64,000 nucleotides of DNA from Tardiphaga sp. P9-11. GTDB lineage: Bacteria > Pseudomonadota > Alphaproteobacteria > Rhizobiales > Xanthobacteraceae. The stretch is from assembly GCF_008329525.1 (NCBI RefSeq), contig NZ_NPKQ01000002.1, positions 124,001 to 188,000 on the forward strand, given 5' to 3'. Position numbers and translations under genes: made by a program. The notes beneath the pieces were generated by a model. That model was not told the origin of the DNA and did no database searches. It saw only the letters and a list, made by a program, of their open reading frames with translations. Shown here piece by piece: positions 21,802 to 26,613 of this stretch. Every line of letters begins with the position of its first letter. The first letter of the stretch is position 1.

Positions 21802-22605
21802 TCAAGAGTTGTTCTTGCTATCCTCGGGCAGACACAGTGCGCGGTGCTTGGCGCCCGCGATAAATGTCAGAATTTCTGCAATCGCCGGATCGTCATTTGC
21901 CAAAGGCAGCACACGCTCAAGCCGCTCAGCGAAGACGCCGGAGCCATGGAAAAGCTTCTGGTAGAACGAGCGCACGGCGGCGACGCGCTCCTTCGTGAAT
22001 TTGCGGCGCTTCATGCCGATGATGTTGAGGCCTTCCAGCGCCGCATACTGGCCATTCACGAGTCCGAACGGGATGATATCACCGCGCACGCCGCAGATGC
22101 CGCCGACCATGACCTGGGAGCCAATGCGGGTGAACTGGTGCACGGCCGACAGCCCGCCCATGAAAACGAAATCGCCGATCTCGCAATGGCCGCCAAGCGT
22201 CGCCGAGGTCGCGAAGATCACGTCATTGCCGACGTGGCAATCATGGCCGACATGGGCACAGTTCATGAAGTAACCGCGATCGCCCACCGACGTGATGCCG
22301 CCGCCAGCGACAGTACCCGCATTCATGGTCACGGACTCGCGGATGGTACAGCCATTGCCGATGGTCAGCCTGGTCAGTTCGCCCTTGTAGCTGAGCGACT
22401 GCGGGGGCGTGCCTAATGACGCGAACGGATAGATCGTGCAGTTCTCGCCGATGGTCGTCTGCGCCGTCACGTTGACATGCGACAGCAGCTTCGTGCCTGC
22501 ACCGATCGTGACATGCGGTCCGATGATGCAGAAGGGCCCGATTTCGGCGCCCTCGCCAATGACAGCACCGTCGGCGACGCGGGCGGTTGGATCGATCTTG
22601 CTCAT
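21802..22605 (-). CDS. lpxA: UDP-N-acetylglucosamine acyltransferase
   Basis: A 267-residue trimeric left-handed beta-helix enzyme, the first step of lipid A synthesis, which moves a 3-hydroxyacyl chain from ACP to UDP-GlcNAc. Hexapeptide repeats run from VIGEGAEIGPFCIIGPHVTIG to about residue 190. The catalytic His is in MNCAHVGHDCHVG, and the C-terminal helices (RRKFTKERVAAVRSFYQ) are intact. In relatives it follows fabZ directly; here a block of about 2.4 kb on the other strand intervenes, so it needs its own promoter in 22606-22761. The ATG at 22605 gives the usual start. Confidence 0.96.
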   Translation of the reverse strand: MSKIDPTARVADGAVIGEGAEIGPFCIIGPHVTIGAGTKLLSHVNVTAQTTIGENCTIYPFASLGTPPQSLSYKGELTRLTIGNGCTIRESVTMNAGTVAGGGITSVGDRGYFMNCAHVGHDCHVGNDVIFATSATLGGHCEIGDFVFMGGLSAVHQFTRIGSQVMVGGICGVRGDIIPFGLVNGQYAALEGLNIIGMKRRKFTKERVAAVRSFYQKLFHGSGVFAERLERVLPLANDDPAIAEILTFIAGAKHRALCLPEDSKNNS

Positions 22606-22718
22606 CGAGAAGTCCAGTTCCTGCAAATTTCTAGGATTTTCCGCTGCGTAACCCGCGTCACGTGGACTGTCCAGTACCGCGCGGACAAGCGCCACTGGAA
22701 CCTTGCTGAACTCCAAAT

Positions 22719-22733
22719 GTTCATGATACGTTC
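22719..22733. promoter_or_regulatory. Possible LexA box upstream of the inserted operon
   Basis: GTTCATGATACGTTC fits GTTC-N7-GTTC exactly with an AT-rich spacer, 28 bases before the ATG of the first LuxR-type gene. A GAAC at 22708-22711 adds a GAAC-N7-GTTC overlap, as in the lexA promoter. An eight-base consensus can occur by chance in 64 kb, so position is the main support. Confidence 0.5.
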
Positions 22734-22744
22734 CTTTTGTATCA
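22724..22744. promoter_or_regulatory. TGATAC/GTATCA inverted repeat, candidate LuxR-type operator
   Basis: TGATAC (22724-22729) and GTATCA (22739-22744) are perfect arms with a 9-base spacer, 17 bases before the first LuxR-type ATG. It overlaps the possible LexA box, so the two readings compete or work together. Confidence 0.4.
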
Positions 22745-22761
22745 GTGTGGAATGACCTTTC

Positions 22762-23034
22762 ATGGCGCGTCTGACCAATCGGGAGGAGGAAGTATTGTCG
22801 CTGGTTGGCCAGTCAATGAGCTGCAAACAGATCGCCCGTGCCCTCGCCATTTCCGAGTTCACCGTCCGCAAACATCGCGCAAGCATCCTGCACAAGATGC
22901 GGCTGGGAACCACGGCGCAACTCACCGCCTTCGCCAAAACATCTTTCGCAAAGGCCTCTTTCACTAATACATCGCATGTCGGCGAGGCATCGCAACGCGC
23001 CGATCAGCGAGAAAGACACGACCGGTCTTTTTGA
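22762..23034 (+). CDS. Free-standing LuxR/GerE-type helix-turn-helix protein 1
   Basis: A 90-residue protein. Residues 1 to about 57 are a complete LuxR-type DNA-binding domain (LTNREEEVLSLVGQSMSCKQ, then ISEFTVRKHRASILHKM) without any sensor or receiver domain in front. The tail (58-90) is polar, rich in Ser, Thr and Arg, and likely disordered. GGA lies about 10 bases before the ATG. Its end overlaps the next gene as TTGA. The recognition part (KQIAR-x-L-x-IS and TVRKHR) is almost the same as in the next gene, pointing to a tandem duplication. Free-standing GerE-like proteins act as plain transcription factors; the target is unknown. Confidence 0.82.
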   Translation: MARLTNREEEVLSLVGQSMSCKQIARALAISEFTVRKHRASILHKMRLGTTAQLTAFAKTSFAKASFTNTSHVGEASQRADQRERHDRSF

Positions 23035-23273
23035 TCGACAGCCGACCCATCCTCCGACCGCGCGAAATCGACGTCGCGCGGCTCATTGCTGTTGGCCTCA
23101 CCAGCAAGCAGATCGCCCGCAAACTCGGGATCAGCCCCCTCACCGTCCGCAAGCATCGCGAGAACGCGATGCGCAGCCTGAACGTCCACAGCCTTGCCGA
23201 GCTGATCGACGCGGCGAGACGCCTCGGTTTCGTCAATACGCCATCGGAGCTATATCGCACAACCATCGGTTGA
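23031..23273 (+). CDS. Free-standing LuxR/GerE-type helix-turn-helix protein 2
   Basis: An 80-residue LuxR-type DNA-binding domain (LRPREIDVARLIAVGLTSKQ, ISPLTVRKHRENAMRSLNVH), again with no sensor domain. The start is TTG and overlaps the stop of the previous gene (TTGA), with no strong ribosome site of its own, so it is probably made by translational coupling. That would give the two proteins in fixed ratio, compatible with a heterodimer. The short C-terminal tail ends YRTTIG. The 119 bases after its stop, before the next gene, show nothing I can name. Confidence 0.78.
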   Translation: MIDSRPILRPREIDVARLIAVGLTSKQIARKLGISPLTVRKHRENAMRSLNVHSLAELIDAARRLGFVNTPSELYRTTIG

Positions 23274-23392
23274 CGCACGCTATGGTTGTTATCCGCGACA
23301 TCGTCACGACAGCACGCAAGCCGCAATACTTCCTCGCCTCGCAAGGCCGCTTGTTGTCGCCGACCAGTCACCATTCAGCCAGGAGCAGCAAC

Positions 23393-24046
23393 ATGGCCAA
23401 GTACACGATCAAGGTTCTGAACAACTCTGGGTTCGCGAAGAACTATGTTCTCTTCATGCAACCACCCGCCGTGACATCGACCGGCGGACAGCCCGTCGTT
23501 TACAGTAACGCGTGGGTGACATTTAACGGCATCCTGCCGGGTGGGACGGACACGGTCGAGTACACCGACGAGACTTTCGCCTACTGGGCAACTGCAACCA
23601 TGCCCGTCGCTCCAGGGACAACCATGGGCCAGAGCGGCGCTGCTGCGGTCGATGTCACTCTGCAGGATAGCGTCACCTTTGCCGGAACGACCCCCATCGG
23701 TTTCGGAACGGTTACGCCGGGCGGCGCCATGAGCGGCTCTTACAGGATTATCGCCAACAACGATTTCACCGCATCCAACGGATACTTGTTCGGTCTGGCG
23801 CGTCCCGGCAACGTTCCGAGCATCCCGTCACCGGTCGCGACCTTCATCGCGGAGCCGAACGACACGTTCAACGTGACACCTGTGATCAACTTCTATGTCG
23901 CCGATGGCGCATACACGCCCGGTCAGATCATCGACTACACCGCAGCCTCGACCAAGGCCGGCAACGTCAACTTCACGGGTCGCGCGCAAACCAGCGCTGT
24001 GGTCACGCAGAACCCCGACGGCTCATTCTCGCCTCAGTACTACTGA
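23393..24046 (+). CDS. Unrecognised 217-residue cysteine-free beta-rich protein
   Basis: I do not recognise this protein with confidence. It has no cysteine, few Lys/Arg, and is rich in Thr, Gly, Ala, Val, Asn and aromatic residues, with alternating patterns that suggest an all-beta fold (YTIKVLNNSGFAKNYVLFMQ, VVYSNAWVTFNGI, FNVTPVINFYVADGAY). There is no signal peptide or membrane span. AGGAG lies 7 bases before the ATG at 23393. Such composition occurs in secreted or surface structural proteins and fibre-like subunits. The gene stands between the LuxR-type pair and the seven-cysteine protein gene, on the same strand. A stable hairpin separates it from the latter, so it may be made in larger amounts. 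Confidence 0.75.
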   Translation: MAKYTIKVLNNSGFAKNYVLFMQPPAVTSTGGQPVVYSNAWVTFNGILPGGTDTVEYTDETFAYWATATMPVAPGTTMGQSGAAAVDVTLQDSVTFAGTTPIGFGTVTPGGAMSGSYRIIANNDFTASNGYLFGLARPGNVPSIPSPVATFIAEPNDTFNVTPVINFYVADGAYTPGQIIDYTAASTKAGNVNFTGRAQTSAVVTQNPDGSFSPQYY

Positions 24047-24123
24047 TCGTCGGCGTCGGTGAAGGCCTGCGTTCTGGCACGCACCAAATCCTGATCGGGA
24101 TCTGCACCATGTGCGTCGCGATC

Positions 24124-24150
24124 GGTGCCGCCGCAGCGGGCGGCGGCACC
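24124..24150 (+). repeat. Perfect 11-bp hairpin between the two unknown genes
   Basis: GGTGCCGCCGC (24124-24134) pairs with GCGGCGGCACC (24140-24150) around a 5-base loop. It has no U-run, so it is not a standard terminator. Lying 78 bases after the first gene and 48 before the second, it could stabilise the upstream message or reduce read-through. Confidence 0.65.
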
Positions 24151-24197
24151 GCATAATCATCCCTCCAATTCAAACGCTGACATCACAAGAGGTCCAC

Positions 24198-25022
24198 ATG
24201 GCTGTAGCCTATTCATCCTTTGTCACGCCGGCAGGGAATCTCGCACCGGCAATTCACGGCGCCAATTTCGACGCCCCGTTCAACTGTTCCGCCACATTCA
24301 CCGGCACCTGCTCGGCTGGCGAATATCGCCAGTATGTTATGGGCCAGAACACGGCCAATGGCAGCGTGGTCGCCCTCGTATTGTGCGGAGCTGTGGTGCT
24401 GCTACCAGCGGCATATCAGGAAGATGGCTGCCCGTCGGGCAGCTGTACGGCGTACGGACATCGAAGCTGTCCACAGCACCCGTATGATCGTTACGACCCT
24501 GCACGTGCGGACGGATGCCAGTTCTCGATGTATGATGCGCCCGGATTCAAGAACGTGGTGCGAGGGACCAGATACGTCGTCTACTTTTCATTCCAGGGAA
24601 AACTGATCGACACGTCAGCCGGCGGCGCCGTCCTTGCAACTAAAGGATGGACGGTAGAAGGAACTACGACCGTGGCAGAGACTCCTCCAACACCGGCCTT
24701 GGTTGGTTTGTCGGCAACCGAGAAACTCATTGGTGCGCATACCTCGCTCAATCTCGACACCGGCGCTCTTGAATTGCACATGGTGATCACGCGCCCCGCT
24801 GGCTTACCGGGCCTCGATGGCTCATCGATGAACCTGTCTCTCATCGATCCGGCGGGTAAAAGATCGCATCCGCCTGACGCACCAGCGGTCCACGAGATCG
24901 GGACGCAGAGCCAATCGACTGTGAGCCTCGTCTATACGCTTCGCCCAGGCGCCACTCCGCCGAGCTCAGTAGAATTGGCGGTACACGGTGGTATCGTCAC
25001 GATGCGCGTTCGGCAGCGCTAG
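24198..25022 (+). CDS. Unrecognised 274-residue protein with a cysteine-rich N-terminal half
   Basis: Seven cysteines (30, 38, 63, 78, 83, 91, 107) lie in the first 110 residues: FNCSATFTGTCSAGEYRQYV, LCG, QEDGCPSGSCTAYGHRSCPQ, DGCQF. The GEYRQYV ... QEDGC ... AYGHR ... GCxF pattern reminds me of a domain I associate with proteins near contractile-injection or toxin loci, but I cannot verify that. The second half (150-274) is Thr/Pro/Ser-rich and beta-like. There is no signal peptide. AAGAGG lies 5 bases before the ATG at 24198. The many cysteines suggest disulphides or a metal site. Confidence 0.72.
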   Translation: MAVAYSSFVTPAGNLAPAIHGANFDAPFNCSATFTGTCSAGEYRQYVMGQNTANGSVVALVLCGAVVLLPAAYQEDGCPSGSCTAYGHRSCPQHPYDRYDPARADGCQFSMYDAPGFKNVVRGTRYVVYFSFQGKLIDTSAGGAVLATKGWTVEGTTTVAETPPTPALVGLSATEKLIGAHTSLNLDTGALELHMVITRPAGLPGLDGSSMNLSLIDPAGKRSHPPDAPAVHEIGTQSQSTVSLVYTLRPGATPPSSVELAVHGGIVTMRVRQR

Positions 25023-25031
25023 ACGAATAAC

Positions 25032-25060
25032 ACGGGCTGAGCGGTATAGCCTCAGTCCGT
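25032..25060. terminator. Hairpin at the junction of the inserted operon and fabZ
   Basis: ACGGGCTGAG and CTCAGTCCGT pair over 10 bp with one G-U and a 9-base loop. It overlaps the fabZ stop codon and follows the inserted operon by 9 bases, so it may end both transcripts. U-runs are weak on both strands. Confidence 0.5.
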
Positions 25061-25531
25061 TAGCATTGCGCCGACATCAGCCTCGGCAACAGTGACGCCA
25101 TTGACCTTGGCGTCGCCGTGGAACCACCACATGGCCTTTTTCTTGCCGATCAGATGCAGGTGATACTCGATCGTATCGCCTGGCATCACCGGCTTGCGGA
25201 ATTTGCATTTATCGATGGTGAGGAAATACACGGCGCGCGGCTTGGCGGTGCCCTCGACCGACGCGATACCGATCACGCCGGCTGTCTGTGCCATGCCTTC
25301 GATCATCAGCACACCCGGATAAACGGGGCGGTCCGGGAAATGTCCCAGGAATGCCGGCTCGTTGATGGTGACGTTCTTGATGCCGATGCCGCTGAAGTCC
25401 TTGCGGATGTTCACGACGCGATCGATCAGCAGGAACGGATAGCGGTGCGGCAGGGTCTTGAGGATGGTGTTGATATCGACCGTCTCAATGACAATCGGTG
25501 ACTCGGCACCGCTTACTGTATCCTGGGTCAT
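25052..25531 (-). CDS. fabZ: 3-hydroxyacyl-[ACP] dehydratase FabZ
   Basis: A 159-residue hot-dog-fold dehydratase of fatty acid elongation. The active-site helix is [22 protein letters not shown], with the catalytic His and Glu, and [12 protein letters not shown] opens the fold. The start overlaps the lpxD stop as ATGA. Its proximity to lpxD and lpxA reflects competition for 3-hydroxyacyl-ACP between membrane lipid and lipid A. Downstream, the expected lpxA is displaced by the inserted block. Confidence 0.96.
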
Positions 25532-26613
25532 TCCCGCCCCTCGTCCTTCGTATCCAGCGTCGCCGCATCCGTTCCCGGCATGCTCTCGCGGGCGAGTCTC
25601 TCCACCGCAAGGATCTCGCGGAACCATTGCTTGGTCGGGCGGGCAAAGATGCCACCCCACCGCGCACGTGGCGGGATGCTGTCCTTCACGCCGGCCATTG
25701 CCGCGACCTGCGCACCATCGCCAATCGTAATGTGATTGTTGAGACCTACCATGGCGCCCAGCGCGACGTTGTCGCCGATGGTCAGGCTGCCCGCAAGGCC
25801 ACATTTCGCAGCGATCACACAGTGCCGTCCGATCGTCACGTTGTGACCGATCTGGACCTGATTGTCGATTTTGGTCCCCTCGCCGATCACGGTGTCACGT
25901 AGGCTGCCGCGGTCGATGGTGGTGCCGGCGCCGATCTCGACATCGTTCTGGATCAGGACGCGACCGGTCTGTGGGACCTTGATGTGCTTGTCCCGGCCGA
26001 ACACGAAGCCGAAGCCGTCCTGACCGAACTTGCAGCCGGGATGAACGAGTACATTATTGCCGATCAGCGTGAACTGCAGCGTGCTACCGGCGCCGATATT
26101 GCAGTCGCGGCCGATCTTGACCCCGGCCGCGATCACGGCGCCCGAGCCGATGATGGTCCCGGATCCGATCTCGACATCGGGACCTATTACGGCCAGCGGA
26201 TCCACAGTGACGTCGTCCTCGAGCTGAGCCGAAGGATGGATGACGGCGGAGGCCGCGATCCCCGAAATGTCGAAGCCGGAAGTCGGACGTAGCGCGTCCG
26301 GATTCAGCTCGCAGGCCAATTCCACGAAGGCCGCAAATGGCCGCTTGGCGCGCAGCACCGTTACGTGAGCCGGAATATCGCCCTTGAAGCTCTCGCTCAC
26401 CAGGCAAGCACCGGCCTTGGTGTGGGTGAGCTGATCGATGTAGCGGAGATTCTCGAAGAAGGTCAGGTGATGGGGGCCCGCCTCGTCGAGCGAGGCTACG
26501 CCGGTCACGATCTGGTCGGCCCGTGTCGGGTCGACCAGTCGCGCCTTCGTTGACGCGGCTATTTCAGCCAGCGTCAACGACGGCGATTGCTTGAAGAACG
26601 TCGGCAGAGCCAT
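25528..26613 (-). CDS. lpxD: UDP-3-O-(3-hydroxyacyl)glucosamine N-acyltransferase
   Basis: A 361-residue enzyme for the third step of lipid A synthesis. It has an N-terminal uridine-binding domain (about 1-105, [26 protein letters not shown]), then left-handed beta-helix hexapeptide repeats ([20 protein letters not shown] onward). The catalytic His is in [10 protein letters not shown], and the C-terminal helix ([15 protein letters not shown]) is present. I chose the ATG at 26613 for the family's MA-x-PTFF start; an in-frame start ten codons upstream is possible. It lies 32 bases after bamA. Confidence 0.96.

Follow-up and report, generated by a model that had tools for sequence, protein, structure and literature searches.

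How can four genes sit, on the opposite strand, within a lipid A operon whose genes are essential? This question is raised by the fabZ-lpxA interval (22606-25051) of a 64,000-nucleotide (nt) stretch of Tardiphaga sp. P9-11 (contig NZ_NPKQ01000002.1, positions 124,001 to 188,000), referred to here as the window. Both fabZ and lpxA lie on the minus strand, the stop of the former beginning at 25052 and the start of the latter being at 22605. Four open reading frames (ORFs) of the plus strand fill 22762-25022 between them: two small regulators, Lux1 and Lux2, followed by two proteins, P3 and P4. A first-pass annotation, made from the sequence alone, had described just such a block, with two free-standing LuxR-type proteins, a cysteine-free and a cysteine-rich protein, and no visible integrase or repeats, and we found it correct in each of these respects. 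The explanation that we favour, and regard as reasonably probable, is that the block is a rhi-like cargo operon at a hotspot in the lipid A operon, where lpxA has an element of its own and cargo is exchanged by recombination in the flanks.

We compared the junction across the genus, where an LpxA search matched 17 of 18 genomes, the fragmented assembly G214 giving none. Three genomes (G000, G088 and G107) carried the block, two carried other cargo, one had a small ORF, six had spacers and five had a tight junction. The other cargoes, named by eye, were a TonB-receptor-like gene with two further genes in G140 (L056 2203-6611) and FkbM-like and acyltransferase-like genes in G155 (L057 2206-4551); in G180, 533 nt between fabZ and lpxA held an 82-codon ORF on the opposite strand. 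Spacers measured 191 nt in G066 and G026, where LpxA is 98-99% identical, and 101-172 nt in G237, G124, G230 and G222, and the tight junctions (G189, G198, G169, G244 and G206) 5-10 nt. The remaining junctions of the operon served as controls in 56 loci, including 11 re-fetched genomes. In the loci that showed both genes, bamA-lpxD measured 2 nt (11 loci), lpxD-fabZ had no gap (49 loci, the overlaps being overstated by up to 69 nt with a fabZ query that carried upstream codons), lpxA-lpxI at most 25 nt (53 loci) and lpxI-lpxB at most 47 nt (51 loci). A larger insert would escape this comparison by pushing the partner gene out of view; for lpxA-lpxI, the partner was missing only in G042 and in the two loci of G222, which lie at a contig end.

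A family sample gave lpxA in 60 of 61 genomes and loci for 30 of these, two already counted in the genus, which left 28 additional junctions; the other 30 genomes with lpxA lay outside this measurement. Among the 28, 21 were tight (at most 20 nt), six measured 138-527 nt, and one had no fabZ within 1.5 kb. The last belongs to G042 (L106), a distant family member in which fabZ was absent within 1.5 kb 5' of lpxA and lpxI was not in view either. Several unrelated cargoes thus occupy one core junction with no integrase among the genes of the block, and these varied contents, set beside other lpx junctions of at most 47 nt, argue that the fabZ-lpxA boundary of this genus is an accessory-gene insertion hotspot inside the operon.

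Why such inserts can be tolerated is suggested by the sequence before lpxA. In every one of the 12 genus genomes whose junction holds a spacer or an insert, including the empty sites, we found, 69-87 nt 5' of lpxA, CTGGACAG (CTAGACAG in two), about 17 nt and then TAACCA or a variant, a count that restates the alignment from which the pattern was written and whose carriers' variant it names. In the window this promoter-like element lies at 22645..22674 on the minus strand and reads CTGGACAG...TTACGCA; TTACGCA forms its second half in the carriers, and the relatives mostly have the TAACCA form. The element was found in none of the five tight genus genomes and, in other genera, in one of 16 loci scanned (G024) out of 28; the 20 loci without a match, scanned over 420 nt each or as far as the locus reached, were the sole control. 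We infer that the element is a promoter. Weighing against this, sigma-70 scans of the window and of the empty-site locus L052 did not report it, its -10 part is poor and recognisable sigma-70 hexamers are lacking, so the argument for an independent lpxA promoter is one of conservation. The block lies 5' of the element, and therefore lpxA keeps it. The earlier suggestion that the block forces lpxA onto a new promoter finds no support here, as relatives that lack the block have kept the element too. With its putative promoter, lpxA would already form a transcription unit separate from fabZ, and inserts would be tolerated because lpxA has this element upstream. In empty-site G066, folding of the 96 nt from the fabZ stop onward gives a long hairpin (z score -4.9), which may end fabZ transcription; it has no T run, however, and a terminator scan did not report it.

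How and when the block arrived was approached through synonymous divergence (dS) among the three carriers. dS was 0.21-0.30 for P3, 0.18-0.26 for P4, 0.19-0.29 for Lux1 and 0.09-0.10 for Lux2, and that of lpxA was 0.15-0.30; with the exception of Lux2, divergence of the block is thus similar to that of lpxA. The ratio of nonsynonymous to synonymous change (dN/dS) suggested genuine genes, at 0.01-0.04 for P3, 0.09-0.16 for P4 and 0.13-0.21 for Lux1, with 0.27-0.46 for Lux2 resting on few changes. Since block dS is close to lpxA dS and P3 is strongly constrained, the block is neither very recent nor decaying. GC content is similar, with 0.57-0.62 in the four genes and 0.615 in the window, and base composition therefore does not point clearly to a foreign source. 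Of the claim that the block is mobile or recently acquired, its accessory character stands, given its absence from the close relatives G066 and G026, and its recent acquisition is not supported by the dS values.

These values also fit a different history, in which the ancestor of the subclade had the block and G066 and G026 lost it, leaving no acquisition to explain at this depth. The lpxA-lpxI tree, built on up to 2 kb and given here without support values, likewise nests the empty sites between carriers: (G107 block,(G026 empty,(G066 empty,(G088 block, G000 block)))). This topology weighs against our explanation in that the carriers may have kept an old block that the empty strains lost, and it fits either loss or replacement by recombination in the flanks. 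However, fabZ is 98.9-99.1% identical among G088, G066 and G026 although G088 carries the block: with the two empty-site genomes G088 has 99.1% identity in fabZ, against 95.4 and 93.1% in bamA. In G088 the interval from P4 to fabZ also contains additional sequence. The near-identical fabZ indicates that locus swapping occurs, and a tree from so short a flank may itself be recombinant. We consider ancestral presence and loss an unlikely account. Exchange of cargo would have proceeded most probably by homologous recombination in the conserved flanks and not by an integrase, as suggested by this one clear fabZ exchange among the five genomes compared.

A small mobile element or remnant island inserting specifically at fabZ-lpxA would explain presence and absence between close relatives. 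It could also draw on the plasmid distribution of RhiA-superfamily relatives, with 79 of 101 plasmid records predicted conjugative and P3 matching four plasmid records at 28-30%. Yet Pfam and repeat scans revealed neither an integrase or transposase among the four genes nor repeats at the block ends, and there is no tRNA in the 64-kb window. The longest repeat within 22500-25200 is the 57-nt paralogy of Lux1 and Lux2, the remaining repeats being imperfect and inside the block. Moreover, unrelated cargo occupies the same junction in other genomes, and the quartet, whose absence elsewhere the first-pass annotation had named as grounds for refutation, was never seen at a second site in the genomes searched. 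Hence we judge a mobile element quite unlikely.

Under the explanation that we favour, the cargo itself calls for interpretation. Lux1 (22762..23034, +, 90 aa) and Lux2 (23031..23273, +, 80 aa, TTG start) are 37% identical paralogues overlapping by 4 nt. Each exceeds the Pfam cut-off for GerE (PF00196; 51.8 and 63.2 bits), the LuxR-type helix-turn-helix (HTH), and Lux1 barely passes that for Sigma70_r4 as well. Both match the DNA-binding domain only, without an autoinducer-binding domain. A single luxI match lies about 50 kb from lpxA in the same genome, behind an ORF judged by eye to be LuxR-like, and N-acylhomoserine lactone (AHL) signalling is therefore likely present, although Lux1 and Lux2 have no domain for AHL binding. 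P3 (23393..24046, +, 217 aa, no cysteine) and P4 (24198..25022, +, 274 aa, seven cysteines) are separated by a 151-nt spacer (z score -3.3) containing a hairpin with a perfect 11-bp stem (24124..24150, +), identical in the three carriers. RNA families gave no match in 22000-25700. Gene order, paralogous regulators, the conserved P3-P4 hairpin, purifying selection and the variability of the junction are observed features, and the function that we propose is that of a regulator-controlled, rhi-like accessory operon. The two coupled GerE-only regulators, divergent from lpxA, would switch on P3 and P4; P3 would be an abundant cytosolic protein, as RhiA is; the hairpin would set the level of P4 below that of P3; and P4 may be the cysteine-rich partner of P3. 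Several observations speak against regulation of this kind. Lux1 and Lux2 lack a ligand domain, in contrast to RhiR, and an inverted-repeat scan of intergenic regions returned one TGATAC-N9-GTATCA repeat 5' of Lux1, not kept in the other carriers, and no repeat 5' of P3.

RhiA of Rhizobium leguminosarum is a root-associated, highly expressed, cytoplasmic and quorum-controlled protein. P3 matched no family at E<=1 in Pfam, NCBIfam, PHROGs or PADLOC, but a profile built from 20 relatives matched it at 57 bits, and a profile of RhiA and two close relatives did so at 31.7 bits, with a profile-profile probability of 92.3%. The similarity is significant over most of P3, which belongs to the RhiA superfamily as a divergent member that no Pfam family matches. 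Some results count against the assignment: P3 was not among the matches of a single-sequence RhiA search, nor was RhiA among those of the 20-member profile from which P3, L077_7 and L078_7 were left out. Two AlphaFold models were of very low confidence (predicted local distance difference test 35.8 and 40.1), and therefore no fold backs the link; solved structures gave nothing at E<0.05 for P3, its family or P4. This unnamed family was found in Nitrobacteraceae genomes and on plasmids of Rhizobiaceae, Phaeobacter and Serratia. A viral origin of P3 was considered and set aside, with no relative in viral contigs or phages, as was a role in defence, neither P3 nor P4 having a PADLOC match. Nine Nitrobacteraceae loci (L063-L066, L070-L074) have RhiA-like genes, some in tandem, beside a conserved gene set (clusters C1-C3; argS-, dgt- and erpA-like by eye), possibly a second recurrent site. 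On a plasmid of R. leguminosarum bv. trifolii 9B (L085), luxR and luxI are divergent from a Cro/C1-type HTH gene with two RhiA-like genes and a small ORF behind it, which makes this a relative linked to AHL yet different from rhiABC.

P4 has all seven cysteines in its first 107 residues and consists of an N-terminal domain (about residues 19-163) and a C-terminal part. No family exceeded its cut-off in Pfam or NCBIfam, where three Pfam families at E 0.1-0.47 fell far below theirs, and none was found at E<=1 in PHROGs or PADLOC. Orthologues are near-identical in the three carriers. Four of 391 genomes matched, the fourth being G180 (E 2.8e-4), whose match, taken as chance, falls within a long ORF in different surroundings (L080). 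A scan with two exact 7-residue patterns, which distant relatives could escape, returned two named records that belong to carriers, Tardiphaga robiniae Vaf-07 and Bradyrhizobium sp. NFR13. In partly overlapping samples, P4 searches matched one of 398 genomes of the phylum (its own), two of 397 of the order (its own and G1054) and two of 318 of the class (its own and G1123). G1123, of another family, encodes a 281-aa full-length relative (109.7 bits) that aligns along both parts, keeps six of seven cysteines and adjoins a DUF2589 gene; in L123/L125 the two stand in a row with a further upstream ORF. In G1054, the P4 domain occupies residues 500-661 of an 801-residue eCIS_core-OmpA protein, whose gene adjoins others with contractile injection system matches in an operon like those of extracellular contractile injection systems (eCIS). 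Residues 19-163 of P4 and the C-terminal half of that protein are 31% identical over 167 columns, and the C-terminal part of P4 aligns only with free-standing relatives. Plasmids contained neither P4 nor its domain, phages and viral contigs no relative of P4, and phages none of the G1054 domain; the P4-domain alignment, and only this, found one viral-contig record, L124, with 18.6 bits to P4 (weak) and 76.5 bits to the G1054 copy. In L124 (2916-5334) the eCIS_core ORF and the P4-like stretch are consecutive in different frames; in G1054 both are in one protein. Kinship of P4 with the C-terminal extension of long RhiA-like proteins, alike by eye, was rejected by profile comparison. The earlier view of an undescribed system survives in that neither protein has a Pfam family, and gives way where P3 joins the RhiA superfamily and the P4 domain recurs in an eCIS_core protein.

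The match to the G1054 protein and the L124 relative beside an eCIS_core ORF might suggest a toxin and its immunity protein in P3 and P4, or a pair of injected effectors. We find this very unlikely, given that the genome itself has no eCIS_core match (control genomes likewise gave none), that no eCIS gene was recognised in 12 kb around the free-standing G1123 relative, that PADLOC returned neither protein, and that 17 regions around other P3 relatives held no P4 relative. Because the rhi operon has a tail-collar protein in RhiB and the P4 domain occurs in an eCIS_core protein, one might speculate, as a very remote possibility, that RhiA-superfamily proteins are cytosolic partners of phage-tail-derived modules and the block a minimal tail-less delivery or assembly derivative beside the lpxA promoter, whose regulators, if so, could also tune lipid A synthesis.

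Taken together, our results suggest that an essential lipid A operon can become a site of gene exchange once an internal promoter exists, and they name the junction concerned. They also link an unnamed protein family to RhiA and reveal an unnamed domain common to a free-standing protein and an eCIS_core protein, each a testable handle. Literature searches on rhiA with Bradyrhizobium, on DUF2589 and on the Tardiphaga fabZ-lpxA junction or block, all with subscription journals largely outside their coverage, gave nothing on this junction or block among the matches listed. The neighbouring genes are lpxA (21802..22605, -, 267 aa), the first gene 3' of the block in operon direction, and fabZ (25052..25531, -, about 159 aa from an ATG at 25531, a start read from the sequence), the upstream gene of the split operon.

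Four known systems invite comparison. PMC5635113 describes integrase-free hotspots of horizontal transfer with recombining flanks, and our junction resembles these in its unrelated cargoes at one core site, a block in which no mobility genes were seen and allele exchange in one flanking core gene; it differs in lying inside a lipid A operon, and our comparison covers 17 genomes of one genus. With eCIS_core (PF13699) proteins, P4 shares a domain of about 145-170 residues with the motifs GE[YF]RQ, QED, YGxR, GC and D-x-P, but it contains neither eCIS_core nor OmpA parts, has a C-terminal part of its own and adjoins no eCIS gene. Lux1 and Lux2 recall LuxR solos as LuxR-family regulators without a neighbouring luxI, and differ from them in carrying the DNA-binding domain only. 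The function of RhiA itself was termed unknown in PMC2275737. The block departs from the rhiABC-rhiR cluster of R. leguminosarum in lying on the chromosome inside the lpx operon, in a P4 without rhi counterpart, and in having no RhiB or RhiC match (neither P3 nor P4 matches Collar, and a P4 profile scores RhiB and RhiC at no more than 4 bits). An adjacent RhiR/RhiI pair is likewise absent, the GerE-only regulators contrasting with AHL-binding RhiR and luxI being far off. What the two clusters share is a RhiA-superfamily protein, adjacent DNA-binding regulation of the LuxR family and the form of a small multi-gene cluster.

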